Shown here: positions 11,129 through 64,000 of the stretch, piece after piece | Position numbering within the stretch: the first letter of the stretch is position 1 | How the letters are laid out: each line of letters starts with the position of its first letter | Assembly: GCA_030581615.1 (NCBI GenBank) | Contig: JAKTTT010000033.1 | Coordinates: 179,786 to 243,785 of the forward strand | Direction: 5' to 3' | Source of the DNA: Alloascoidea africana | Lineage: Eukaryota > Ascomycota > Alloascoideomycetes > Alloascoideales > Alloascoideaceae | Length of the DNA stretch: 64,000 nt | Position numbers and translations under genes: made by a program | Notes under the pieces: model-generated | The model's database searches: none | The model's input: the letters and a program-made list of their open reading frames with translations, nothing else | What the model was told of the DNA's origin: nothing

Positions 11129-12350
11129 TCAGTAGGGCCTATACCGTGATCTTTTGGGTTTTGATTTTGATTTTGATTTTGATTTCGATTTTGATTTCGA
11201 CTTGTGTTTATGTGTATGCTTTGGGCTTTGTTCCGGTATCGTTTCACTCTCATCGTCTCCCCAGAACTGTTCTCGAGCGTTTAATCCAGGGTGCCTCCAT
11301 AGTCTCACAATACCGTCTTCTCCGCCAGTATATATAAGATCATTCTTGCAGTAGACTGCTCGGATGACCTCTTCTCCATGGCCCCCTTCTAGCATGATGG
11401 ACCTCGCTACGTCGATCTTCAGGTCACTGCCAAACGGTAGCAGCTTGATCTCAGACCGTGAATTGGCCCCAACGACGATATAGCCCGGTATCAAATCAAC
11501 AACGTATTCACAGCCAAGCGTCGGCCGAACATCTCCAAATTCAACCGGCTTCTTTTCTTCCCCTTCCTCTTCCCCGACCTTTGATGTGTCTTTGTCTTCC
11601 TCGATCTCGTCAAAACGGTTCAACTCGTGCACACTTAACGTTTCCATATGTGATAGTGCGTAAACCTGTCGCCGAGACAAGAACCCACACGAATGGATCG
11701 AGGCAAAGTTGATCGTCTGCAGGACTGCCTCGTCTGGATCCGCGATCGCCGTGTTATAAACGTGGACATAGCCATCTGTAGAGCCCGAGAGCAGTCCTTG
11801 AGAGTCTTCGGGGTGGAACTTGACCGCGGTGACGTCGTCATTGTGTGAGTCCATAAAAGAGGATAGCGTTTTGGTAGAAGCCCGAAAATCCCAAATGTGA
11901 ACAGCAGCGTCTACTCCGAGTAACTCTGTTCCTGCTGCAATTCGTCCCGTCTCCAGATGACTGTCGATACATGTTATGGGAGCCTTGTTTTCTTTGACAT
12001 TTTTTACTCACTGTTAGTAAAGGGTTACGCTTAGAAACAATTCAAACAAACTCACCAGCGCTCGCACTCCAAACAGAGCCAGCAGTTCTCAAGTCCCAAA
12101 TCTTCACGCCGTCTGTTCCACAGGAAGCAATCAAATTCTGTTTATCAATACTCTTCAGCCCAGTTATGGGTCCCCCATCGTGAGCATTCTTGGTGACCAA
12201 CTCCTGATCACTACGTTTCGCTTCTCCTCCAACTATTCGTAGAGATGAATCACTCAATGAGGCCACTACCCTCCTGTTGCACACTGGAGCCAGGTCAAAT
12301 ATATATTCGGACCCAAATGACCATTTTTCTGTATATTTAACAGTTGACAT
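11129..12350 (-). CDS. WD40 repeat protein, WDR89-like
   Basis: Two exons: 12056-12350 and 11129-11991, 385 residues. The 64-nt intron (donor GTGAGT, branch TACTAAC, acceptor TCAAAG) joins SASA to ENKAPITCIDS. WD-type repeats are visible at GPITGLKS..ASCGTDGVKIWDL, AAVHIWDFRA, DDVTAVKFHP..LLSGSTDGYVHVYN and VIRAVYCKNDLIYTGGEDGIVRLWR. The order and the insert between blades resemble the WDR89 family, whose function is poorly known. The C-terminus is a Lys-Ser dipeptide repeat encoded by a TTTTGA-type hexanucleotide repeat (11154-11205, plus strand). Stop is 155 bases before the kinase ATG, same strand. Confidence 0.8.
11154..11205. repeat. Hexanucleotide repeat encoding (KS)n
   Basis: About eight copies of GATTTT/GATTTC on the plus strand, in frame in the minus-strand WD40 gene, where it encodes alternating Lys and Ser. 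A candidate for length variation. Confidence 0.8.
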
Positions 12351-12728: not shown

Positions 12729-13179
12729 GCAGAGCCAAGACATGACCAGCATCTGTGCTTTCTTAGTGGGATTGAAGACAAGATGCGACAAAACGTCAAT
12801 TTAGAGAGCTCATCATTTATGGTGATTCTGGTTATCAACAGACTAATGTACTTGCTTCTCCTTCCAGACCAAGACCGGAAGCCCATGGTTCACTAATGTG
12901 AATAATTCCATGAAAGCTGTTAGAGCTTCTGAGGAACATTCATATGAGTATACTAATGCTAATTACAGCAAGTTGAGCTACTATTGGACAAGTGCAATTG
13001 ATAAAAGTTGTGTTGCGGAGTATCTTTTGATGTTTGTTTTTTACTGTCTAATCTGTAGAATTGTTGTATGCCAAACCAGTTATCAAAAGCTTTCAGCGTA
13101 TATAGATTCCTATAAGTTGGCGCAGATACGTCGAAAGGTTTTTATATCTGATTACGCTTTGTGCAATTCTAAAGATTAG
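12729..13179 (+). pseudogene. DDE transposase relic (DDE_Tnp_4/Harbinger-like)
   Basis: Three plus-strand frames give consecutive parts of a DDE-type nuclease. AEPRHDQHLCFLSGIEDKM (from 12729) corresponds to the RRHD block. LIIYGDSGYQQTNVLASP (from ~12814) contains the second catalytic Asp in the family motif GD.xY. SPWFTNVNNSMKAVRASEEH (from ~12880) carries the terminal catalytic Glu. The remainder, to the stop at 13177, ends with a hydrophobic Cys-containing segment typical of these proteins. At least two frameshifts and no start codon show that it is dead. Assignment is from motif order; no terminal repeats were recognised. Confidence 0.55.
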
Positions 13180-14210
13180 ACAGTAAAACTTTCAGAAGAT
13201 GCTCCGCACCTACATAAAAGAAGCTATCCTCAGCGCTTGTGGACTCGCCCTTGAGCACGTTACTATGGTTGAATATCGAAGCATTCATGTAGCGGAGCAA
13301 TTGATTAACATTTTTTATTACTTCGAGAAACTGTCGGTTTATCGATTAATTGGCTTCGCCAGTGTACTGTGACAATGCCCCAGCGGTATCTCCATTCTCG
13401 ACATCGCTGTTGGGTACGGATGGGAGGTGTTCACTGATCTCTAGTTCTCCCTTCTCGCTTGTAATCTGGTGACCGCGCTTGAGAGGCTGAGAGCGAGGTA
13501 TGATTAATTACCTCGTCTTATACCCCTTTGGTTTGACATTTTAGCTGGCACTTAGACTTGTTCCAGTAAATTCATCTTGTAGCTAGGAGCGTATGCATCC
13601 TACAAATCTTTATATGGTGTTACTGGTGATAAACTCTGAAACTGTCTTGTATCAAGAAGAGTGTATTTTGTCGTATATATATTTGAAATGAATGATAACG
13701 TCTTTTATTATAGAATTGTTGTTCTGTACAGAGTTTATAGTGATTAATATTTACACAGATGCATATGCGATTCTACATAGTCAACGTCAGCGCAGGCAGA
13801 GAGTGCATCAGTTTTCGAAGCTCCAAGTGGTGCAAAACGTCCTCTGGCATTGATTGACAATGTAGAAATCGTCTCAAAGAAGAAAGAACTAAAGAGACTA
13901 TACCCAGAATGGCCTCAATGGGTTTATTCTTAAGTTACTGAGCATAATTTACAAAGGCTTTTATAATAAGCAATGCTATGGAAAGAAAATCTCTATGGAG
14001 AGAGAGCTCTCATACTACTTAAGAATAGATTCCTCATCAAGAATCGCTATATTACACTAACTTGCCGTATAACAGAAAAAAGTCATTATAGTTACTTTAA
14101 AGTGGTCCATAGTAAAACTAGCAAAGAAAATACAAATACATCATGTGTGGGAATATTTGAAACAGAGCACCTGAACAATGTTTGCTTGATTAATTGGGAT
14201 AATTGACCAA
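13180..14210. other. Gap with degraded minus-strand coding debris
   Basis: No intact gene. On the minus strand, a 50-codon open segment ends at ~13347 (reads IPRSQPLKRGHQITSEKGEL and onward), with GC-rich codons unlike its surroundings. A second segment near 13780-13930 reads TISTLSINARGRFAPLGAS. Both lack starts and are interrupted, so they are probably relics. A 7-bp-arm dyad (CGAGGTA/TACCTCG) lies at 13494-13515. Confidence 0.35.
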
Positions 14211-20251: not shown

Positions 20252-22816
20252 ATGTCTGGATCACACAAGGGTAAAAAAAAGCCATTTCATAAAAGGGCAA
20301 AGGGCAAGAAAGAATTTACATCTCGCGACAAAACCGGCAAGAGTAAAGTGAAAAGCACAAGACCTAAAACTGGGAATGCAAAAGTGACAAAATCGGCTGC
20401 TACACCAAAGGGTAAAGTTGTAGCGGCAAGCAGCTTATCATGGAAAAAAGTAGATGCTGAGAATTTGGACGATGCGTATGGATTCTACGGGTTGGAGGAG
20501 ATTGATGGTGTGGATGTGGAGATTGTCAACGGGAAGGTAAATTTCATCAAGGTTCAAGAGCAGGATGAAGAGGAAGAGGAAGAGGAAGAGGAAACAGAGA
20601 TGGATGCTGATATGGAGGAGTCTAAGGATGGGATCTTGGAAGGTGATGTCGAAGAAAAAGAAAGAAAGAAGCGTGTTGAGAAAGCAGAGATTTCCAAGAA
20701 AAAGAAAAAGTCCAAGAAACCCAACAAGAAGGAAGCAGACGATGAACTGATCCATACTCCAAAGGACAACAAAAATCCATTCCAATTGCTATCTTCCATT
20801 TCCGAGGTTTCTCTCCCCAAGTGGACATTTCGAAAGCAATCTTTAAGCACAATACTTGATGAAGATGACACAGACAGTGAGATTGAGATTGATGGGGATA
20901 CAGAGACGATTTCATTATCACCGTATTTGTTACAAGGGTTGAAAGAGTTGGGTTTTACAAAACCATCTGAAATTCAGAAAAAATGTATCCCGGAGATTGT
21001 ATCTGGGTTGGACGTTATTGGTAAGGCATCTACAGGAAGCGGTAAAACTTTGGTCTATGGGTTGCCTATTCTTGACAGGATGTTGCAGCAGCAGAATGAG
21101 GAAGAAGACGAAGAAGAAGAAGAGGAGGTGGAGGAAAACGATGATGATGAAAAGGACGATGAGAATAAGAGTAAGAAAAGAAGAGCACCTATGGCGCTTG
21201 TGTTTACGCCAACACGAGAGCTCGCACACCAAGTAACAAAGCATCTGAACCAGGTAAGCAAGTACAGTCCACTCGGTGCGAATTGCATCATCAGCATTAC
21301 CGGTGGGTTATCTATCCAGAAGCAAGAGCGGTTACTTACCAAGTACCAACCTGGGATAATTGTTGCGACTCCAGGACGACTCCTTGAGATTATGGAGAAA
21401 GTGGATACAGTTTTAACGGAGCTTCGAAAAGTGCAGTTTCTGGTGTTTGATGAGGCCGATAGATTGTTACAGGATGGACATTTTGCAGAATTGGAAAGGA
21501 TTTTAAAGTTGTTGAAGAGCCGTGGTGATGGGAATGAAAGGTTTGATGACGAGGATACAGAGATGGATTCTGATAAAAAGAACAGGAAGCATAAGAATAA
21601 GAATAAGAATAGGGGTAAGAACAAGGTGAAGAATCTGGATGAAGGAAAACAGAGATTTCAAACACTTGTATTTTCAGCAACGTTTCAGAAAAGTCTTTTG
21701 TTCAATTTGGATAAGAATCATCATGGGAGAACAGAAGGGAAGGGAACAGACCTTGCAACAAACGAGGAGATGGTTCAATTGTTGCGGTCCAAGCTTGGGT
21801 TTTCAAGAAAGGTTCAATTTATCGATGCAAATCCAGTTGGGAAACTAGCGGCTGAGATTGTGGAGGCAATTGTGGAATGCAAGGGACCCGTTGAAAAAGA
21901 CTTGAGTCTATATTACTTTCTGTTGATGTACCCTGGACGAACTCTTGTGTTTGCGAATTCGATCCAGAGCGTCAAGAGAATCGCTTCTATGCTTGGGGAG
22001 TTACAGGTAACGAGCTTTGCGATCCACTCAAACATGATTCAAAAGCAACGGTTACGGTCTTTAGAGCGGTTCAAAGCCAGTATGGACTCTGGCAAGAGCA
22101 GCGTTTTGGTAGCCACTGACGTTGCCGCTCGTGGGTTGGACATTGCGGATGTGGACCATGTTATCCACTATCACCTGGCAAGAAGCGCAGACATGTATAT
22201 ACACCGGTCTGGAAGAACAGCCCGGGCAGGCAAAGAAGGAGTCAGTTTGGTGCTGTGTTCCCCCCAGGAGGCAGCAGGCCCACTACAAAAGCTACGAAAG
22301 CTGCTGGCAGGCGGGGCCAAGATGAAGATGCTGCCCATGGACCACGACGTGCTGAAGCAGGTGCGGCCGCGGGTGGAAATCGCCCAGCGGCTGGCGGACT
22401 CGACGGCGGCAACGCAGAGCGAAAACAAAGACCGCAACTGGCTGTCTGAGGCCGCCCGCGATCTGGGGCTGGACGGCGAGGACGAGTCCGAGCTGGCCGC
22501 GGTGCTGGGCGAGGACGACAAGCTGCGGAAGAAGCGCCGCCGCAACGAGGCACGTGCGCTGTCACGTGGGGACGCGGCTGCGATGCGCGGCGAGCTGCGG
22601 TGGCGACTGGCCAACGAGCGGGTGCGGGCCGGCGCGGTGCTTGCGGGCCGGCGCGGGTATCTGACGGGCGGCGTGGTGAACCTGGCGGCGGCGATGGCTG
22701 GCGGCAGTGGCAGTGGCAGCAGCGCTGGCAGTGGCAGTGGTAGTGCTGGGCGTACGGGTGTGCTGGGCCACGAGGGCCGCCGCGCCGTGCGGGTAATAGG
22801 TAGCAAGGGTGTATAG
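20252..22816 (+). CDS. MAK5: DEAD-box RNA helicase Mak5 (60S ribosome biogenesis)
   Basis: 854 residues from ATG 20252 (AAAAAATGTCTGG). An upstream in-frame ATG at 20165 would add 29 residues with no Mak5 similarity, so it is not preferred. It has the Mak5-specific block FYGLEEIDGVDVEIVNGKV (~73). Helicase motifs: Q motif (GFTKPSEIQKKCIP), I (ASTGSGKT), Ia (PTRELAHQ), GG, Ib (ATPGR), II (DEAD), III (SAT), V (ATDVAARGLDI) and VI (HRSGRTAR). Acidic Glu-rich inserts sit at ~105-120 and inside RecA1. The last ~150 residues end YLTGGVVNLA..GHE as in Mak5, with a Gly/Ser repeat insert. Codon usage flips from AT- to GC-rich near 22300. Confidence 0.95.
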   Translation: MSGSHKGKKKPFHKRAKGKKEFTSRDKTGKSKVKSTRPKTGNAKVTKSAATPKGKVVAASSLSWKKVDAENLDDAYGFYGLEEIDGVDVEIVNGKVNFIKVQEQDEEEEEEEEETEMDADMEESKDGILEGDVEEKERKKRVEKAEISKKKKKSKKPNKKEADDELIHTPKDNKNPFQLLSSISEVSLPKWTFRKQSLSTILDEDDTDSEIEIDGDTETISLSPYLLQGLKELGFTKPSEIQKKCIPEIVSGLDVIGKASTGSGKTLVYGLPILDRMLQQQNEEEDEEEEEEVEENDDDEKDDENKSKKRRAPMALVFTPTRELAHQVTKHLNQVSKYSPLGANCIISITGGLSIQKQERLLTKYQPGIIVATPGRLLEIMEKVDTVLTELRKVQFLVFDEADRLLQDGHFAELERILKLLKSRGDGNERFDDEDTEMDSDKKNRKHKNKNKNRGKNKVKNLDEGKQRFQTLVFSATFQKSLLFNLDKNHHGRTEGKGTDLATNEEMVQLLRSKLGFSRKVQFIDANPVGKLAAEIVEAIVECKGPVEKDLSLYYFLLMYPGRTLVFANSIQSVKRIASMLGELQVTSFAIHSNMIQKQRLRSLERFKASMDSGKSSVLVATDVAARGLDIADVDHVIHYHLARSADMYIHRSGRTARAGKEGVSLVLCSPQEAAGPLQKLRKLLAGGAKMKMLPMDHDVLKQVRPRVEIAQRLADSTAATQSENKDRNWLSEAARDLGLDGEDESELAAVLGEDDKLRKKRRRNEARALSRGDAAAMRGELRWRLANERVRAGAVLAGRRGYLTGGVVNLAAAMAGGSGSGSSAGSGSGSAGRTGVLGHEGRRAVRVIGSKGV

Positions 22817-23183
22817 CGAACAAACCTGTCTGTGCTCGTTGTAGGTGTGTGGGTGTCCGCGGTCGGAGTGCGGGCGGGGAGGGGCCTACCCCACCTGGCC
22901 GAGCTGGGCGGCTCCTGGGCTCCCAGCCGGCGACCAGCAAGAAGCTCCAGAACAGCTTTTTCGGCCGCTGGGCGCTAGGGCTGGAATCCAACATCTGTTT
23001 TCCGTATCGGCTTTGGAGCTGGACGTTGAAACTGGTCCTTTGGGCCAATCCGGGGTATTTAACTGCCCCTGAACCGCCTTATTTCGTCCAGTTCCTTTAC
23101 CCCAGACCAGAAAGAAGCGTTCCTCCAGGCCTCCTCCCCCTCGTCCTCAAGTAGTGTGTTGCTCTGTTGCTCTGTTAGTTATA
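22817..23183. other. GC-rich intergenic region upstream of 2-methylcitrate dehydratase
   Basis: Continuation of the GC-rich segment that begins within MAK5, up to ~22980, then a pyrimidine-rich leader with GGGTATTTAA at 23053. No gene seen. Confidence 0.55.
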
Positions 23184-24746
23184 ATGCGCTCCTTCTTCTC
23201 ATCCTCCGCAGCATCTCCTCTTAGATCAATCTCCCGTGCCGCAGCGTTTACAAAACCAATCTCTGCCTTTAAAGCTCCTGTTTCCACCCCTTTCCTGCGC
23301 TCAATGGCTACCATCAACACCGACAACGTTCGTCCCCAGTCCGACAAGGTCATTGCCGACATTGCGGACTACGTCCACAACTACAAGATCGACTCGCCTC
23401 TCGCTTTCGAGACCGCCCGTCTCTGCTTCCTCGACTCTCTCGGGTGCGGTCTCGAGGCCCTGAAGCACCCCCAGTGTGAACAACTCCTCGGACCAATTGT
23501 CCCTGGCACTTCTGTCCCCAACGGTGCTAGAGTCCCCGGTACTGACTACGTCCTGGACCCAGTCACCGCCGCTTTCAACAACACCGCAACCATCCGTTGG
23601 CTCGACTTTAACGACTGCTGGCTCGCCGCTGAATGGGGTCATCCTTCCGACAATTTGGGCTCAATTCTCGCTGTCACTGACTACTTGACCCGTGCAGGTG
23701 TGAAAAATTTCACCGTCCGTGATGTTCTCGAGTCCTTGATCAAGGCTCACGAAATCCAGGGTGTTTTGGCATTGGAAAACTCCTTCAATGCCGTTGGTCT
23801 CGATCACGTCTTGCTTGTCAAGGTCGCCTCCACCGCCGTTGTCTCAAAACTCCTTGGCCTGACCCAGGAACAGACTGTCGACGCCATCTCCCAGGCCTTT
23901 GTCGATGGTCAGTCTCTTCGTACTTACAGACACGCACCCAACACCATGAGCAGAAAGTCATGGGCCGCTGGTGATGCCGTTGCCAGAGCCGTCAACTTGG
24001 CCTATCTCGTCAAGCGTGGCCAAGGTGGCATGCCCTCAATTCTGACCGCCAAGACCTGGGGTTTCTACGATGTTCTCTTCAAGGGTCAAGAGTTCAAGTT
24101 CCAGCGTCCTTATGGCTCCTACGTCATGGAGAACGTTCTCTTCAAGATCTCTTTCCCCGCTGAGTTCCACGCCCAGACCGCCGTCGAGGCCGCTCTCACC
24201 CTCCACCACCAATTGAAGGAGAAGAACGTGGGTGTTGACCAGATCAAGAGCATCCGCATCAGAACCCAGAACGCTGCCATGCGCATCATCGACAAGAAGG
24301 GTCCTCTTTACAACTACGCCGACCGTGATCACTGTATCCAGTACATGGTTGCCATCCCCTTGATCCACGGCCGTTTGACCGCAACCGATTACGCAGACGA
24401 CATTGCCTCCGACCCCCAGGTCGATGCTCTCCGAGAGAAGATGACCTGTGTTGAGGACGAAAGATTCACCACAGAATACCACGAGCCTTCCAAGCGTTAC
24501 ATTGGTAATGCCATCGAAATCACTTTGGAAGACGGAACTGTTCTCGATGAGGTTGAGGTTAACTACCCCATCGGTCACAAGAACAGAAGACAAGAAGGTA
24601 TCCCCGTTCTCCTTGAGAAATTCGAAAGACACTTGAAGGGAAGATTCGACCAAGCCCAGGTTGATTCCATTCTTAACAAATCCGATGAAAAAGTAGGTGA
24701 CTTGAGCGTCTCTGAATACCTCGACCTTTTCGTCAAGAAGAATTAG
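23184..24746 (+). CDS. PDH1: 2-methylcitrate dehydratase, mitochondrial (PrpD/MmgE family)
   Basis: 520 residues from the first ATG at 23184. A clear mitochondrial presequence (MRSFFSSSAASPLRSISRAA) precedes the PrpD fold starting near residue 40. Conserved blocks: FLDSLGCGLEALK, NDCWLAAEWGHPSDNLG (substrate/active-site region), YRHAPNTMSRKSWAAGDA and FKISFPAEFHAQTAVEAA. The enzyme dehydrates 2-methylcitrate in the methylcitrate cycle that detoxifies propionyl-CoA. ALK in the second block uses CTG where relatives have Leu. Codon bias is strong (C-ending codons), suggesting high expression. Confidence 0.95.
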   Translation: MRSFFSSSAASPLRSISRAAAFTKPISAFKAPVSTPFLRSMATINTDNVRPQSDKVIADIADYVHNYKIDSPLAFETARLCFLDSLGCGLEALKHPQCEQLLGPIVPGTSVPNGARVPGTDYVLDPVTAAFNNTATIRWLDFNDCWLAAEWGHPSDNLGSILAVTDYLTRAGVKNFTVRDVLESLIKAHEIQGVLALENSFNAVGLDHVLLVKVASTAVVSKLLGLTQEQTVDAISQAFVDGQSLRTYRHAPNTMSRKSWAAGDAVARAVNLAYLVKRGQGGMPSILTAKTWGFYDVLFKGQEFKFQRPYGSYVMENVLFKISFPAEFHAQTAVEAALTLHHQLKEKNVGVDQIKSIRIRTQNAAMRIIDKKGPLYNYADRDHCIQYMVAIPLIHGRLTATDYADDIASDPQVDALREKMTCVEDERFTTEYHEPSKRYIGNAIEITLEDGTVLDEVEVNYPIGHKNRRQEGIPVLLEKFERHLKGRFDQAQVDSILNKSDEKVGDLSVSEYLDLFVKKN

Positions 24747-25693: not shown

Positions 25694-26053
25694 CTAATAT
25701 GACGAAGCAAGACAGAGAGGTCTGATGGATGTGTTGTTGACACTCTGTTGACCTAACCTTGTCTTACACCAATTGGTACCTTTCCTGTCTTTGTCAGGGT
25801 ACTTGATAATCTTGACATGGTTAGTTTTGTCATGATGGGTGTTCATGTGGTCTATCCATCCACCTTCCTCCTCTCGCGTCTCTGTTTCACTTGTCACGAA
25901 GTGTGTGCTTCTCTTGGCGTCTGTTTGATTCCTTTTTAGAATACTCAATTGGCGGTCTTCCTTTTTGATCTGGTACTTGACTGTCCAGTTAGCTTGTATA
26001 GCGTTCTTAATTCTTCCTTCACCATCCTCGACCGTGTTTGGTAGGCAAGGCAT
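25694..26053 (-). CDS. Hypothetical hydrophilic protein (doubtful)
   Basis: 119 residues from ATG 26053, highly charged, no membrane segment, not recognised. It ends beside the long palindrome (left arm starts at 26165). The amino-acid composition looks protein-like, but a chance frame or a mobile-element fragment is possible. Confidence 0.22.
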   Translation of the reverse strand: MPCLPNTVEDGEGRIKNAIQANWTVKYQIKKEDRQLSILKRNQTDAKRSTHFVTSETETREEEGGWIDHMNTHHDKTNHVKIIKYPDKDRKGTNWCKTRLGQQSVNNTSIRPLCLASSY

Positions 26054-26164
26054 TTCCCCGTTCCATAACAGTTGTGGTATTTGACGTGTTTGAAGGTGAA
26101 TTGTCGGGCTTAGCTGTGCGGTGTGGAAAAGATATTTCGCAAATTCGGCTTGATTCCGACCTGT

Positions 26165-26495
26165 GTAGAGTGTTTTATAAATTATTTTTGTTCCAAAATT
26201 GCAAGAAATTCCTAACCTTTGAACCGCACTCTACGCTTTTTGTCACTACCATCTTTTTCTTGCCAGGGCATTTCTATTTTCACTATAAGAATATGTTTTT
26301 CTATTACTACGAAACATCTATGGACAAAAGTAGAGCTACTTTTCATACCTTTCGTAGTAATAGAAAAACATATTCTTATAGTGAAAATAGAAATGCCCTG
26401 GCAAGAAAAAGATGGTAGTGACAAAAAGCGTAGAGTGCGGTTCAAAGGCGATTTCTTGCAATTTTGGAACAAAAATAATTTATAAAACACTCTAC
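26165..26495. repeat. Nearly perfect 331-bp inverted repeat (foldback/hairpin)
   Basis: Left arm 26165-26314 and right arm 26350-26495 are reverse complements except for one internal difference (TCCTAA against CG). The 35-nt centre holds its own short dyad (AAAAGTAG/CTACTTTT). CACTCTAC or its complement occurs four times: at the outer ends and again ~60 bp inside each arm. Transcription from either strand would give a long, almost fully paired hairpin. There is no coding content. Confidence 0.97.
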
Positions 26496-27307
26496 GCTGG
26501 ATGACAGAATCTAGTCGTTAGGAGTTTGGTCCGTGAAAGTAGTCTGTAAAAAGCTTAATCTATTAGAAATGAAATAGAGACTCCTCTTATGTAGATAGAG
26601 CTATGTAGCTACAATTAAGGTGGTTGGCAAGAGGTTGGCTTGGTCTCAGAGAGTGGTTGGCTTGCATACCAAAAGTAGTAAGACAGTCCTTGTGAGTGAT
26701 AAGCCATCTCATTATAACACTTAGATATCAATAAAGTTATCGAGAAGGGAGAAGGGAGAAAGACTAGACCAAACATCCGTGTTATCTCCACAACTAATTA
26801 GCTCGTGATTTATCCATGAGCAAATTAACCGAACGTTTTATGTAAGCTCAGACACTCCGTTTTGTTTATTTGCTCTGTCATTGCTTAAAACAACACTTTA
26901 CGAACCATTGAAGAACTTGGACATAATCCCATCCTTTTAGCACAGCATTGATCAAAAAGAATGGCAATTCGATCAAGAAATGATGATTTAAGATTGAAAT
27001 CTGGTGACTACTCTAATCACAAAAACCCTTGCAAAGTTGTACCTGTGCGGTGGATAGGGTAATCAATCAAAAAGACTTTGTGTAAAAAGCATGGAAAATA
27101 ATGCATACAAATTCATGGAGCACAGAATAAGTATTCCGCGTTAGGAAACACTTCTTTGGTAGCAATTAAATCATTAGATAGTTCTTCACAACTTGGTCAT
27201 ATGGCTTCAATAGAAAAGAGGCATTTGCCTTTTCCAATCATTTTGTAGTTTTTGTGTTTGTGTTTGTGGTTTTTTGTGAATTAAGCGCCGAGATATCAGA
27301 TATCGAA

Positions 27308-27315
27308 CCGGGTAA
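27308..27315. promoter_or_regulatory. Reb1-like site (CCGGGTAA)
   Basis: Reverse complement of TTACCCGG, 425 bases 5' of the FAP1-like ATG, next to a GATATC dyad. Confidence 0.4.
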
Positions 27316-27649
27316 CCACTATTTCCCAAACCTTCTCAGCCCTTCGTTAGTCAGCACTTACCTACACGCATAGATAGAGGCACTTTCACAATGAGACCAG
27401 CTAATCTCGGCCAGTGATACGCAATGACCAGACTCCAGCTCTATTTGATCGTTTGATTCAGTTTTCGGATCTCAGGCACTAGTATTGGCTGATGGGCCAG
27501 AGTTGGGAGCTGAAGAGAACCACCCAAACATGACAACTAAAACTAAAATCACCCATACACCCTTCTAATCTGGGTCGTTGCCATTTTTGAAAAGATTTGA
27601 GCATCATTATGAGTAGCAACGGCTAAGAAACTAAAAGTGGAAATAGAGG

Positions 27650-27657
27650 TATATAAA
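27650..27657 (+). promoter_or_regulatory. TATA box of the FAP1-like gene
   Basis: TATATAAA 83 bases before the ATG at 27740. Confidence 0.5.
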
Positions 27658-27739
27658 TGGGCCAGGAAGACATCTGAATATCCATTATCTTTTATTCCCT
27701 CTTTAATACTTTTAAAAAGCTATTATTACTACTATCCAT

Positions 27740-30700
27740 ATGCCTGGTATCGACACAATAACGGAAACGGAGACTGAACTTGTTCACCAGATACATGATT
27801 CTAGTCTATACATCAACCAATATGTGAATAACGATATGGACACCACAGATGACGACACCACAGACGATGATGAAACTAGTTCTGATGAGAATGAAGAACA
27901 CTCTATTGCTGATGAAGACCTAGGAGATATCATCACCAGGGAAATTGCAGATGGCACATACATTTGTCTTGTCTGTACTTGTGAAGTGGATTCAAATTCT
28001 CACGTTTGGAGTTGTAGACTATGCTACAGAGTCTACCATTTGAGTTGTATTAGGGGTTGGGCGAAAAAAGGTTCTTCTACAGCTCATGATACTAAACAGT
28101 GGAAATGCCCTTCTTGCAACGGCACAACCTCCAAAATTCCTTCCCAGTACAGATGCTGGTGTGGGAAGATTGCACACCCTTCCCCCAATGTGTTCAATCC
28201 CCATAGTTGTGGCAATACCTGTAACGTTCCTCTCAAATCCTGTGTCCATGGATGCCCATTACAATGCCATCCGGGCCCCCATGCTGCTTGTACGGCTCTT
28301 AGTCCTTTTCTGCCCTGTCGGTGCGGGTTTGCAAAAGAGCAGTGGGCATGTAGCGTTGCACCTTATGGCGGTTGGCAGTGTAATCGGATATGTGATGAAA
28401 TCATGCCCTGTGGGAAACATGTATGCGGGAAACGATGTCATGATGGCCTCTGTGGACCCTGTACTATCGAATCCGAGGAAAAATGTTACTGTGGACGGCA
28501 TTCCAAAATGATGAAATGCCATGATAGAAAGCCAATCCCAATCTCTTCTTCACAGGGATCTGTTGGTTGTTATTCGTGTGAAGAAACCTGTGATGCTTTA
28601 CTGGATTGTGGAATACACAGATGTAATCTAAAATGTCACCAAGATACACCATCTTCAAGCCCTCACAAGTGTCCGAAAAGTCCAGATGCAATCAAGTTTT
28701 GTCCCTGTGGCAAGTCCAGAATCGAGACTTTACTAAGCGGACATAACAGAACAAAATGTACAGACCCAATTCCAACATGTAAACAAATCTGTGGGAAACA
28801 ACTACCCTGTGGACATAATTGCCCTCATTACTGTCACGAGGGCGCCTGTGAACCATGCCACGAGATTATAAAACGGAGATGTAGATGCGGGTTCTCAACA
28901 TACCTCGTCTCCTGTCTATTTGCCCAAGCTGGCGGTGTGCCTAGATGTAAACACCGATGTGATGCATTTCTCTCATGTCGTAAACATCGTTGTGGTCAGA
29001 TATGTTGCGAATTTGAACAAGCTGCAAGTGCTCGGGAAAAAGAACGACGCAAAAACAGTAGACTCAGGTCCTCGCCAAATAACAGCAACGCTACAGCAGA
29101 TGTGGAAGCCGTTCATGTCTGTACTAAAGTGTGCGATAAACTGCTAAAGTGTGGGATCCACAGGTGTCAAATGATGTGTCATATGGGTCCTTGTGACCCT
29201 TGTTTGGAACTGAACTTCCACGATTTGAGCTGCCCTTGTGGCAAGACCGTTATTCCTGGACCCGTAAGATGTGATGTCAAATTGCCCCCTTGCAAGTATC
29301 CATGCACAAGAACTTTGGAATGTGGACATAAACAAGTTTATCATCTGTGTCATGACGATAGCGTGAAATGTCCTCCTTGTGGAATTTTAACTACCAAAAG
29401 TTGCGCCTGCGGCAAGAAGCAAGATATGGTAGCGCCTTGTTCCCAGCCCTCTGAACTCATCTCATGTGGTCAACCGTGTGGGAAACATCTGTCCTGTGGT
29501 ACACATCTGTGCAAGCAAATCTGTCACCCTCCAGGTCAGTGTCCCTCAAAGTGTACAGCCAAGTGTGGCAAGAAGCGCACAGGGTGTGGGCATCCATGTC
29601 TGGATTTATGTCATTCTCCTTTCAAGTGTGATGATTCGAAACGATGTCGGGTGCTGGTAAAGTTGAGTTGCGAATGTGGAAACGTTCAATTGAAAAAAGC
29701 ATGTGGTTACTCTTCTTCATCGCCAACTTCCTGTGTTGGTCAGGTCTTGCCCTGTAATGGAGAATGCGCAAGACTCGGTAGGAATAGAAGACTACTTCAG
29801 GCTTTACAACTGGGATCCGACGACCATAACGCGCCAATTCCAATTCCCTCACGGAATCCTCTACCACTAATCCCGACAGGCAGCGAATCAGCTGGTGGGG
29901 ATGAGGGAGATACAATGCTTGATCCAACTGCAATTTCTTTGTACAGCAACCTCATGTTGTCTTTCTACATGAAAAACCCAACTTGGTGTAAACAGATTGA
30001 ATCGCAGCTATGGGACTTTACAAACAGTTGTAACAACAGTAATAATGATACCGGAAAAGCTAAAAGCAACGCTGTTATACGTTTCAAGCCAATGCGAAGC
30101 CCCCAACGACAATTTATTCATATGATGTGTGAGGTTCTAGGTTTGAGATCAGAGGCACAGGACGTGGAACCCAATAGAAGCGTTGTCGTTTATGATTCAG
30201 GATTGGCAAAAGTGCCTGGGATGCGCATAGAAGAGGCCATTAAAGCTCAGGCCCTCCTCGTCAAATCTAAACCTATCGAGAAACAGTCTAGTGATTTTCA
30301 AAGTTTAGCTTCAGTTCCACAACAAGATTCAACCTTAGATTTGCACACTACTTCCACTGCATACTTGGACTCGCCATTCAATGCTTTTCTGATTCAGGAC
30401 TGCAAGCATGGCCTGACAACACAAGATTTGGAAACTGCATTTGAACCGACTTTGAAGCCTGCTGCATCATCATCCTCTAATACTGGTTTTGGGGTTAAAT
30501 ATCTCAATGACTCTGAGTTTCTGCTTGTGCCTACATCAAACCTGGAGTATGCTGCTATGAGTTCGCTCCTCAAACCACTTAATCACATCGTCAGACATCG
30601 TTCGTTGGCATTTAACGTCACACTCTGTAAAATTACAACAGATGATGCTATTAGGCCTCCAATTCTGCTACAAGTAGATGGCAAGATTTCCTCTAAACCG

Positions 30701-30796
30701 GCAGAAGAGGTTGGAACTAAAAAAGCAAAAACGTTTTTTCCTATAACTAAAGGACGGTGGGAAGATTGGGTTGAAGAAGATGACGATGATTATTAA
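27740..30796 (+). CDS. FAP1: NFX1-type zinc-finger protein, Fap1-like
   Basis: 1018 residues in one exon. Acidic N-terminus (~35-60), an atypical RING/PHD-like Cys-His cluster at ~75-130 (CLVCTCEVD..CRLCYRVYHLSC..WKCPSC), then about ten NFX1-type fingers of the C..CGxHxC..xCHxGxC type to ~690. An R3H-like segment follows at ~790-815 (RQFIHMMCEVLGLRSEAQD). Saccharomyces Fap1 binds Fpr1 and competes with rapamycin; NFX1 proteins are putative E3 ligases and nucleic-acid binders. Its 3' end converges on the chitin synthase with only 28 bases between stop codons. Confidence 0.92.
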   Translation: MPGIDTITETETELVHQIHDSSLYINQYVNNDMDTTDDDTTDDDETSSDENEEHSIADEDLGDIITREIADGTYICLVCTCEVDSNSHVWSCRLCYRVYHLSCIRGWAKKGSSTAHDTKQWKCPSCNGTTSKIPSQYRCWCGKIAHPSPNVFNPHSCGNTCNVPLKSCVHGCPLQCHPGPHAACTALSPFLPCRCGFAKEQWACSVAPYGGWQCNRICDEIMPCGKHVCGKRCHDGLCGPCTIESEEKCYCGRHSKMMKCHDRKPIPISSSQGSVGCYSCEETCDALLDCGIHRCNLKCHQDTPSSSPHKCPKSPDAIKFCPCGKSRIETLLSGHNRTKCTDPIPTCKQICGKQLPCGHNCPHYCHEGACEPCHEIIKRRCRCGFSTYLVSCLFAQAGGVPRCKHRCDAFLSCRKHRCGQICCEFEQAASAREKERRKNSRLRSSPNNSNATADVEAVHVCTKVCDKLLKCGIHRCQMMCHMGPCDPCLELNFHDLSCPCGKTVIPGPVRCDVKLPPCKYPCTRTLECGHKQVYHLCHDDSVKCPPCGILTTKSCACGKKQDMVAPCSQPSELISCGQPCGKHLSCGTHLCKQICHPPGQCPSKCTAKCGKKRTGCGHPCLDLCHSPFKCDDSKRCRVLVKLSCECGNVQLKKACGYSSSSPTSCVGQVLPCNGECARLGRNRRLLQALQLGSDDHNAPIPIPSRNPLPLIPTGSESAGGDEGDTMLDPTAISLYSNLMLSFYMKNPTWCKQIESQLWDFTNSCNNSNNDTGKAKSNAVIRFKPMRSPQRQFIHMMCEVLGLRSEAQDVEPNRSVVVYDSGLAKVPGMRIEEAIKAQALLVKSKPIEKQSSDFQSLASVPQQDSTLDLHTTSTAYLDSPFNAFLIQDCKHGLTTQDLETAFEPTLKPAASSSSNTGFGVKYLNDSEFLLVPTSNLEYAAMSSLLKPLNHIVRHRSLAFNVTLCKITTDDAIRPPILLQVDGKISSKPAEEVGTKKAKTFFPITKGRWEDWVEEDDDDY

Positions 30797-61489: not shown

Positions 61490-61605
61490 GCTCCAGTGGC
61501 GCAGAGGTTAGCGCATCGTGCTTATAGCCGTTCAACGACGTCTATGCTGATGTCACGGTCGTGTGAGGAACGCGACGGTCGTGGGTTCAATCCCCTCCTG
61601 GAGCA
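61490..61605 (+). tRNA. tRNA-Ile(UAU) with 43-nt intron
   Basis: Acceptor stem GCTCCAG/CTGGAGC is perfect (7 bp). D arm GCGC-AGAGGTTA-GCGC. Anticodon stem TCGTG/CGCGA closes the loop CTTATA|A with anticodon TAT (34-36). T arm GTGGG-TTCAATC-CCCTC has one T-T mismatch. The intron (61527-61569) sits at the canonical position 37/38. A pol III terminator (T9) follows at 61611. The minor isoacceptor reads AUA; in yeasts this tRNA is typically intron-containing. Confidence 0.94.
61527..61569 (+). other. tRNA-Ile(UAU) intron
   Basis: 43 nt between A37 and A38. In Saccharomyces the intron of this tRNA is required for pseudouridylation of the anticodon (U34, U36) by Pus1; by homology the same may hold here. 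Confidence 0.88.
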
Positions 61606-63311: not shown

Positions 63312-64000
63312 TCATATCAACAACAAAAACCCAACAGCACCGAACACGGCCGCCGTCTTGGGGAAATTTTTCACGCCTGCTCCCGTGTATTGCTCTGGAA
63401 TAGAGGCAGAACCAGTTGCGATAGGTTGAGCACTACCAGTGTAACCGGAAGAAGAACTTTCCGCTTCATCCCCAATCGGAGAAACGGCAGTAGTTAACGT
63501 AGTTCCTGGCACAACAGGAGCAGCTGGAACAGTAGAGTCTGTAACAATTGCGGTTGCTAGCACAGGAGATTCTTGACTTCTGGTGATAACTGTGTCACAT
63601 TCGCTTTCTTCGCACTTGAAGGTTTTAGAAGAGCTAGCAACAGGAGTCTCTGTGCCTGTTGGGTATATGATGGAATCCAACGAAGTGGTCAGTCCATTAA
63701 CAGGTGGAGCCGATGTCTCGGTTGCTTTGGTGCCTGGAACAACGACAGTGGTTTTCACAGTAGATCCAGATGAAATGTAAGTTGTTGTAAGAGTTGCAGG
63801 TTTCTGGGAAGGTATAGTTTCCTTTCCAGTTGAATAAGTGACAGTCTCAGAAACCGAAGTGTCTGGAATGACGATGGTTGTCTTCACAGTAGATCCAGAA
63901 GAAATGTAGGTTGTCGTGATTGTGCTAGAAGGTTGAGGTCCTGGTACAGTCTCAGAAGTAGTAGTGCAAGGGATGACAATGGTGTCAGTAACAGTAGATC
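63312..64000 (-). CDS. GPI-anchored cell-wall repeat protein, C-terminal part (N-terminus outside window)
   Basis: Partial: open from the right edge (frame starts at 63998) to TGA at 63312. Ser/Thr-rich repeats of ~30-40 residues with the core TTTYISSGSTVKTT(I/V)V(I/V)P occur at least twice intact, plus a degenerate copy at the edge. A two-Cys motif (FKCEESECDTVITR) is followed by a Ser/Gly spacer and a C-terminal hydrophobic tail (AAVFGAVGFLLLI) preceded by small residues, a GPI-attachment signal. Such proteins are cross-linked to wall glucan and often act as adhesins or flocculins; the ligand domain would be beyond the edge. Confidence 0.82.
   Translation of the reverse strand, partial: STVTDTIVIPCTTTSETVPGPQPSSTITTTYISSGSTVKTTIVIPDTSVSETVTYSTGKETIPSQKPATLTTTYISSGSTVKTTVVVPGTKATETSAPPVNGLTTSLDSIIYPTGTETPVASSSKTFKCEESECDTVITRSQESPVLATAIVTDSTVPAAPVVPGTTLTTAVSPIGDEAESSSSGYTGSAQPIATGSASIPEQYTGAGVKNFPKTAAVFGAVGFLLLI

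Follow-up and report, generated by a model that had tools for sequence, protein, structure and literature searches.

How did a stretch of 331 bases that is almost its own reverse complement come to lie between two genes of a yeast chromosome? The stretch occupies positions 26165-26495 of the 64,000 bases of Alloascoidea africana DNA analyzed here (hereafter, the window), and an earlier note had described it as a near-perfect palindrome with a nested dyad at its center. Both descriptions were borne out: the stretch is a real, near-perfect inverted repeat with these coordinates. When its halves (26163-26333 and 26336-26498) were aligned, 158 of the 160 ungapped columns were identical. The alignment contains 14 gap positions, one of them an end gap produced by the uneven cut and the other 13 grouped in three blocks. 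Comparison of 26165-26495 with its own reverse complement by BLAST gave a single match (340 columns, 91.8%). Exact arms of 99 nt (26216-26314 and 26350-26448, 100% identity) are accompanied by further arm segments of 50 nt at 96% identity (26160-26209 and 26451-26500). In 20 Markov shuffles of the window, exact inverted repeats within 400 nt reached at most 11-14 nt, compared with the 99 nt found here; if the palindrome is excluded, the longest one in the window has 16 nt and belongs to a second foldback considered below.

The central dyad, AAAAGTAG-AG-CTACTTTT, has 8 bp on each side of AG, and its chance probability in a shuffled 35-nt spacer is 0.00245. Simple shuffling or random placement underlies this and the other probabilities given here, all of them calculated post hoc with the features already in view. 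RNA folding of 26160-26500 yielded -247 kcal/mol (z -44), and none of 100 shuffles was as good. The palindrome and the second foldback occupy the top four rows of a fold scan in 300-nt windows with steps of 100. The coordinates of the relevant features are collected in Table 1.

Table 1. Features of the palindrome and of the second foldback (positions in the window)
Feature	Positions	Strand	Basis or remark
Left arm, including left half of central dyad	26165..26333	+	Self-alignment
Right arm, reverse complement of left arm	26336..26495	-	Self-alignment
Palindrome center, 2 nt (AG)	26334..26335	.	Half-to-half alignment
Nested central dyad AAAAGTAG-AG-CTACTTTT	26326..26343	.	Shuffled-spacer chance 0.00245
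Central GTAGAG, repeat of 26165-26170; possible template-switch microhomology	26330..26335	+	Null P 0.02, post hoc
6-versus-2-nt block (left 6, right 2)	26210..26215	+	Exact placement alignment-dependent
Terminal motif GTAGAGTG, left end	26165..26172	+	Motif search
Subterminal motif (CACTCTAC on +), left arm	26227..26234	-	Inverted recurrence P 0.0036
Subterminal motif GTAGAGTG, right arm	26430..26437	+	Motif search
Terminal motif (CACTCTAC on +), right end	26488..26495	-	Motif search
CTG, possible target-site duplication, left	26161..26163	+	Flank direct-repeat scan
CTG, possible target-site duplication, right	26497..26499	+	Flank direct-repeat scan
Second, decayed foldback, about 206 bp	13008..13213	.	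Aligned arms 13014-13101 / 13126-13208
ATAAAAG, left direct repeat of second foldback; copy at 13214-13220	13001..13007	+	Null P 0.03

According to the earlier note, the arms differ at a 6-versus-2-nt block alone. That block does exist, but two further differences are found near the center. Read left against right, TCCTAA faces CG, CATC faces GG, and GAC faces nothing, so that the left arm is the longer one in all three blocks (6 vs 2, 4 vs 2 and 3 vs 0). The two mismatches of the alignment are a T/C pair just outside the left copy of the terminal 8-mer GTAGAGTG and one base inside the 6-versus-2 block; between the GTAGAGTG ends, the arms carry no substitution outside the three blocks. Such near absence of substitutions points to either youth or homogenization of the arms, and fits the proposal that the palindrome is recent or maintained. 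Judging from the second foldback, which is old and diverged, homogenization is probably not general in this region. Near-perfect arms might also betray an assembly or library artefact in the form of an inverted chimera. We consider this explanation quite improbable, as the arms differ in three blocks, the flanks beyond 26165 and 26495, where the inverted match stops, do not mirror each other, and the strongly diverged arms of the second foldback cannot come from a recent chimera.

The terminal inverted repeats have sharp ends, and unbroken identity of the arms stops at GTAGAGTG. The palindrome harbors four copies of this 8-mer, which reads CACTCTAC when it lies on the minus strand, in accordance with the previous claim that a motif occurs four times with nested symmetry; two other copies are found in the window, at 800 and 41082. 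The probability that the terminal 8-mer recurs in inverted orientation inside the arm is 0.0036. Because some inverted 8-mer is often present at an arbitrary place in the arm (23.5% of shuffles), we give weight only to the terminal position of GTAGAGTG. At the right end of the palindrome, the motif in common with the inner copies extends to 10 nt (GCGTAGAGTG). An element nested in another, as had also been suggested, is a possible reading of this four-copy layout, although the layout does not require it.

The trinucleotide CTG is the sole symmetrically placed direct repeat of at least 3 bases at the flanks of the palindrome, and had been proposed to be a target duplication. The sequence is indeed present on both sides, but direct repeats of at least 3 bases were found in 6 of 484 flank placements while arithmetic predicts about 7.6, and chance should, also by arithmetic, give a match of 3 bp in one or other of about seven symmetric near-end placements roughly once in ten. 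The CTG flanks are thus symmetric but not beyond chance, and no more than suggestive of a target-site duplication.

The combination of an end motif, an inverted subterminal motif and a candidate target duplication suggests a non-autonomous foldback element. We provisionally file the palindrome as a recent copy of a short, non-coding, MITE-like foldback element, a tentative reading to which we would assign somewhat less than an even chance. An element of about 333 bp (26164-26496) would have inserted into a fungal intergenic region. A putative transposase encoded elsewhere in the genome would bind GTAGAGTG at each end together with the inverted subterminal copy, and would excise and insert the element, leaving the 3-bp CTG duplication; the arms would have had too little time since insertion to diverge. 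In favor of this reading we count the sharp ends, the inverted recurrence of GTAGAGTG, the symmetric CTG, and a second foldback with one similar end. Counted against it are the lack of a second copy in the window or the collections searched, the unlike bodies of the two foldbacks, the second foldback's dissimilar left end, the unequal candidate duplications (3 and 7 bp), and the post hoc nature of the tests.

Nine stop-to-stop open reading frames (ORFs) of at least 30 aa overlap the palindrome. In the four longest (26011-26415 and 26216-26482 on the plus strand, 26215-26517 and 25694-26227 on the minus strand; the other five have 32-51 aa) there was no Pfam match at the curated cut-off, the sole match being YIF1 with an E value of 0.16. 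By these four ORFs, the palindrome lacks coding capacity, as MITEs and foldback elements do. No transposase was recognized in the 20 ORFs scanned among the 30 of at least 150 aa in the window; a non-autonomous element needs no transposase nearby. BLAST detected no second copy of the palindrome within the 64 kb, where matches to the arms are short and weak (17 nt at 94%, 26 nt at 81%). The 341-bp sequence 26160-26500 had no match in phages or plasmids in distant mode, and exact arm patterns had none in viral or prokaryotic contig collections; the collections searched being viral, plasmid and prokaryotic, these misses say little about a fungus. Among the origins that the earlier note had put forward, a foldback element or MITE is the one we favor, on account of the inverted GTAGAGTG and the second foldback, though with no second copy in the window.

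The second foldback is decayed: 64 of the 83 ungapped columns of its arms are identical, with one 5-nt gap, and the arm alignment stops 5-6 nt short of the direct repeats. It lies (13001-13220, repeats included) upstream of an ORF with WD40 repeats on the minus strand (11129-11854). The null probability of its 7-bp flanking repeat ATAAAAG was calculated from 1500 random placements (Table 1), and the candidate target duplications of the two foldbacks differ in length, 3 bp in the palindrome and 7 bp here. Read inward, its right end, GTAGGTGCGG, is one deletion away from the inner GTAGAGTGCGG of the palindrome. The window has four sites that differ from GTAGAGTGCGG by at most one edit, namely the two palindrome arms, this end of the second foldback, and 28881. 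The similarity of the right end to the palindrome, over 20 nt, has a null P of 0.025 (3000 random placements); the left end shows no likeness to the palindrome (best score 5.5 vs 8.5 for the right end). The idea that the second foldback is a copy of the palindrome body was rejected, as the alignment scores were 17 and 17 compared with a shuffled mean of 19.4. From the similar end we infer that the two foldbacks may be related. A bolder speculation is that both are members of a single, undescribed family of mobile hairpins in a yeast lineage, with GTAG(A)GTG ends repeated inverted in the arm, and that their transcripts are also a natural source of dsRNA; we regard this as a long shot.

The main rival explanation is a one-off inverted duplication during replication or break repair, a serious candidate though in our opinion less likely than not. 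A strand would fold back at the central GTAG-AG-CTAC, use its own arm as template for about 165 nt, and rejoin via a short microhomology. In the best-supported version, the right arm would have come first and 26165-26329 would have been copied from it, with the direct repeat GTAGAG on either side of the copy; small central changes would have reduced the symmetry afterwards. The 6-nt repeat, found at 26165 and 26330, has a null P of 0.0196 when any spacer cut and both directions are allowed. For the opposite copy direction the match is 4 nt only, a length reached by the same null in 23% of trials. The head-to-head duplication of the earlier note is kept as the main rival, in the form of a template-switch copy.

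Short inverted repeats are described as priming palindromic duplications in yeast in the excerpts consulted of PMC7999016 and PMC7467729, and the former attributes such duplications in Mre11- or Sae2-deficient yeast to repeats of 5-9 bp with spacers of 3-12 bp. The 8-bp central dyad with its 2-nt spacer is close to such repeats, the spacer lying just below the range. Hairpins can also arise by template switches, as stated in the part consulted of PMC8794818; the largest template-switch-like pattern named there, in rRNA genes, has 59 bp, unlike the copy of about 165 nt that would have to be made here. The palindrome thus resembles the template-switch (quasi-palindrome) mutations and foldback inversions of yeast in having a central short inverted repeat and junction microhomology, and differs from the chromosomal rearrangements described in the excerpts of PMC7467729 in being a local insertion. 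A template switch alone would leave unexplained the inverted copy of GTAGAGTG in subterminal position, the likeness of one end of the second foldback, and the presence of three differing blocks in arms that are almost free of substitutions.

A further explanation is that the palindrome is a hairpin-RNA locus that might be retained for Dicer-cut siRNAs, by analogy with the palindromic loci of Naumovozyma castellii; a role in RNAi might describe what the element does and not how it arose. A transcript would fold into a long, nearly unbroken stem, and inverted repeats able to give hairpin transcripts make up many of the N. castellii loci that yield the most siRNA, according to the portion consulted of PMC7528652. 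Those loci, however, are siRNA sources, while the palindrome is known from DNA sequence alone. In addition, Dicer and Argonaute genes have a patchy distribution among budding yeasts and RNAi is absent from most Saccharomycotina (PMC5499181, in excerpt), the arms have no further matches in the window beyond the short, weak ones mentioned above, and the second foldback has no clear excess of G-U pairing (five G-U against two A-C in seven transitions, with 12 transversions). We deem this explanation improbable, and selection on RNA structure in the second foldback was not upheld. Rfam searches at E values up to 5 returned 26 matches at the palindrome, mostly miRNA families and several with nearly equal scores on both strands, and five at the second foldback; all are below gathering scores. 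The sub-threshold miRNA matches were set aside as the presumed effect of any long hairpin.

The window is a gene-dense segment of a eukaryotic chromosome, and many of its genes are open over long, intron-free stretches. At least one Pfam family was recognized in 19 of the 20 scanned ORFs, including chitin synthase, COG6, SHQ1, diphthamide synthesis, acyl-CoA oxidase and glucoamylase (GH15). Two ORFs have as their closest solved structures acyl-coenzyme A oxidase 1 (5y9d), presumably from Yarrowia, and glucoamylase GLU1 (1ayx), presumably from Saccharomycopsis. The gene content as a whole suggests an ascomycete of yeast-like kind. The palindrome lies in an intergenic gap of about 3 kb between an ORF of the MmgE/PrpD family (23154-24746) and an R3H/NF-X1 ORF (27740-30796) whose product we take to be FAP1-like. 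Other observations in the window are a GC-rich patch (22201-23100; 0.60-0.74 in 300-nt windows vs 0.42 for the window) surrounding the 3' terminus of an ORF for a DEAD-box helicase, and a 59-bp direct repeat, 83% identical, at 63730-63788 and 63859-63917. A tRNA-Ile(UAU) gene with a 26-nt intron (61490-61605) was detected by ARAGORN with the intron option, missed without it, and also found by Rfam, whose sole match at gathering score in the entire window is a tRNA.

Inverted repeats flank some regional centromeres of yeasts, according to the excerpts of PMC5499181, and a centromere- or origin-associated inverted repeat was therefore considered. The GC content of 26001-28000 is 0.383, compared with 0.423 in the window, while the putative centromeres of Blastobotrys are troughs of about 6 kb with 31-33% GC in a 48% genome (PMC4022394, in excerpt). 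With no deep GC trough and gene-dense surroundings, we judge this reading very unlikely indeed.

Galileo, a foldback element of Drosophila, and Tm1, an element of root-knot nematodes, provide a comparison for the element that we tentatively favor. Like MITEs and foldback elements of this kind, the palindrome is short, has no recognized coding domain, carries arms inverted over almost its full length, and shows sharp ends and candidate flanking direct repeats. Unlike them, it lacks a second copy in the window, a documented empty site and a known transposase. To our knowledge, the GTAGAGTG ends match no named transposon superfamily. A search of the MITE and foldback literature on yeasts, mostly non-subscription, yielded no yeast MITE among the matches listed, which are mainly plant, animal and general works, with a few on other fungi or microsporidia. 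By term count, neither 'MITE' nor 'class II' occurs in the yeast genome review PMC5499181.

The element and template-switch readings make different, simple predictions for the ancestral allele: the right arm would be kept if a template switch occurred, and neither arm would be present if an element was inserted. A search for syntenic contigs via the R3H/NF-X1 protein gave two pattern matches in prokaryotic contigs, none of them confirmed, and none in viral contigs. Altogether, the palindrome is a real and modestly interesting structure, most likely either a MITE-like element, as which we provisionally file it, or a one-off copying accident through template switching, the serious rival. If it represents a MITE-like family, hairpin-type DNA elements would be added to a yeast lineage; if it arose by template switching, it would be a long example with nearly intact arms, useful to understand how long palindromes arise and survive.
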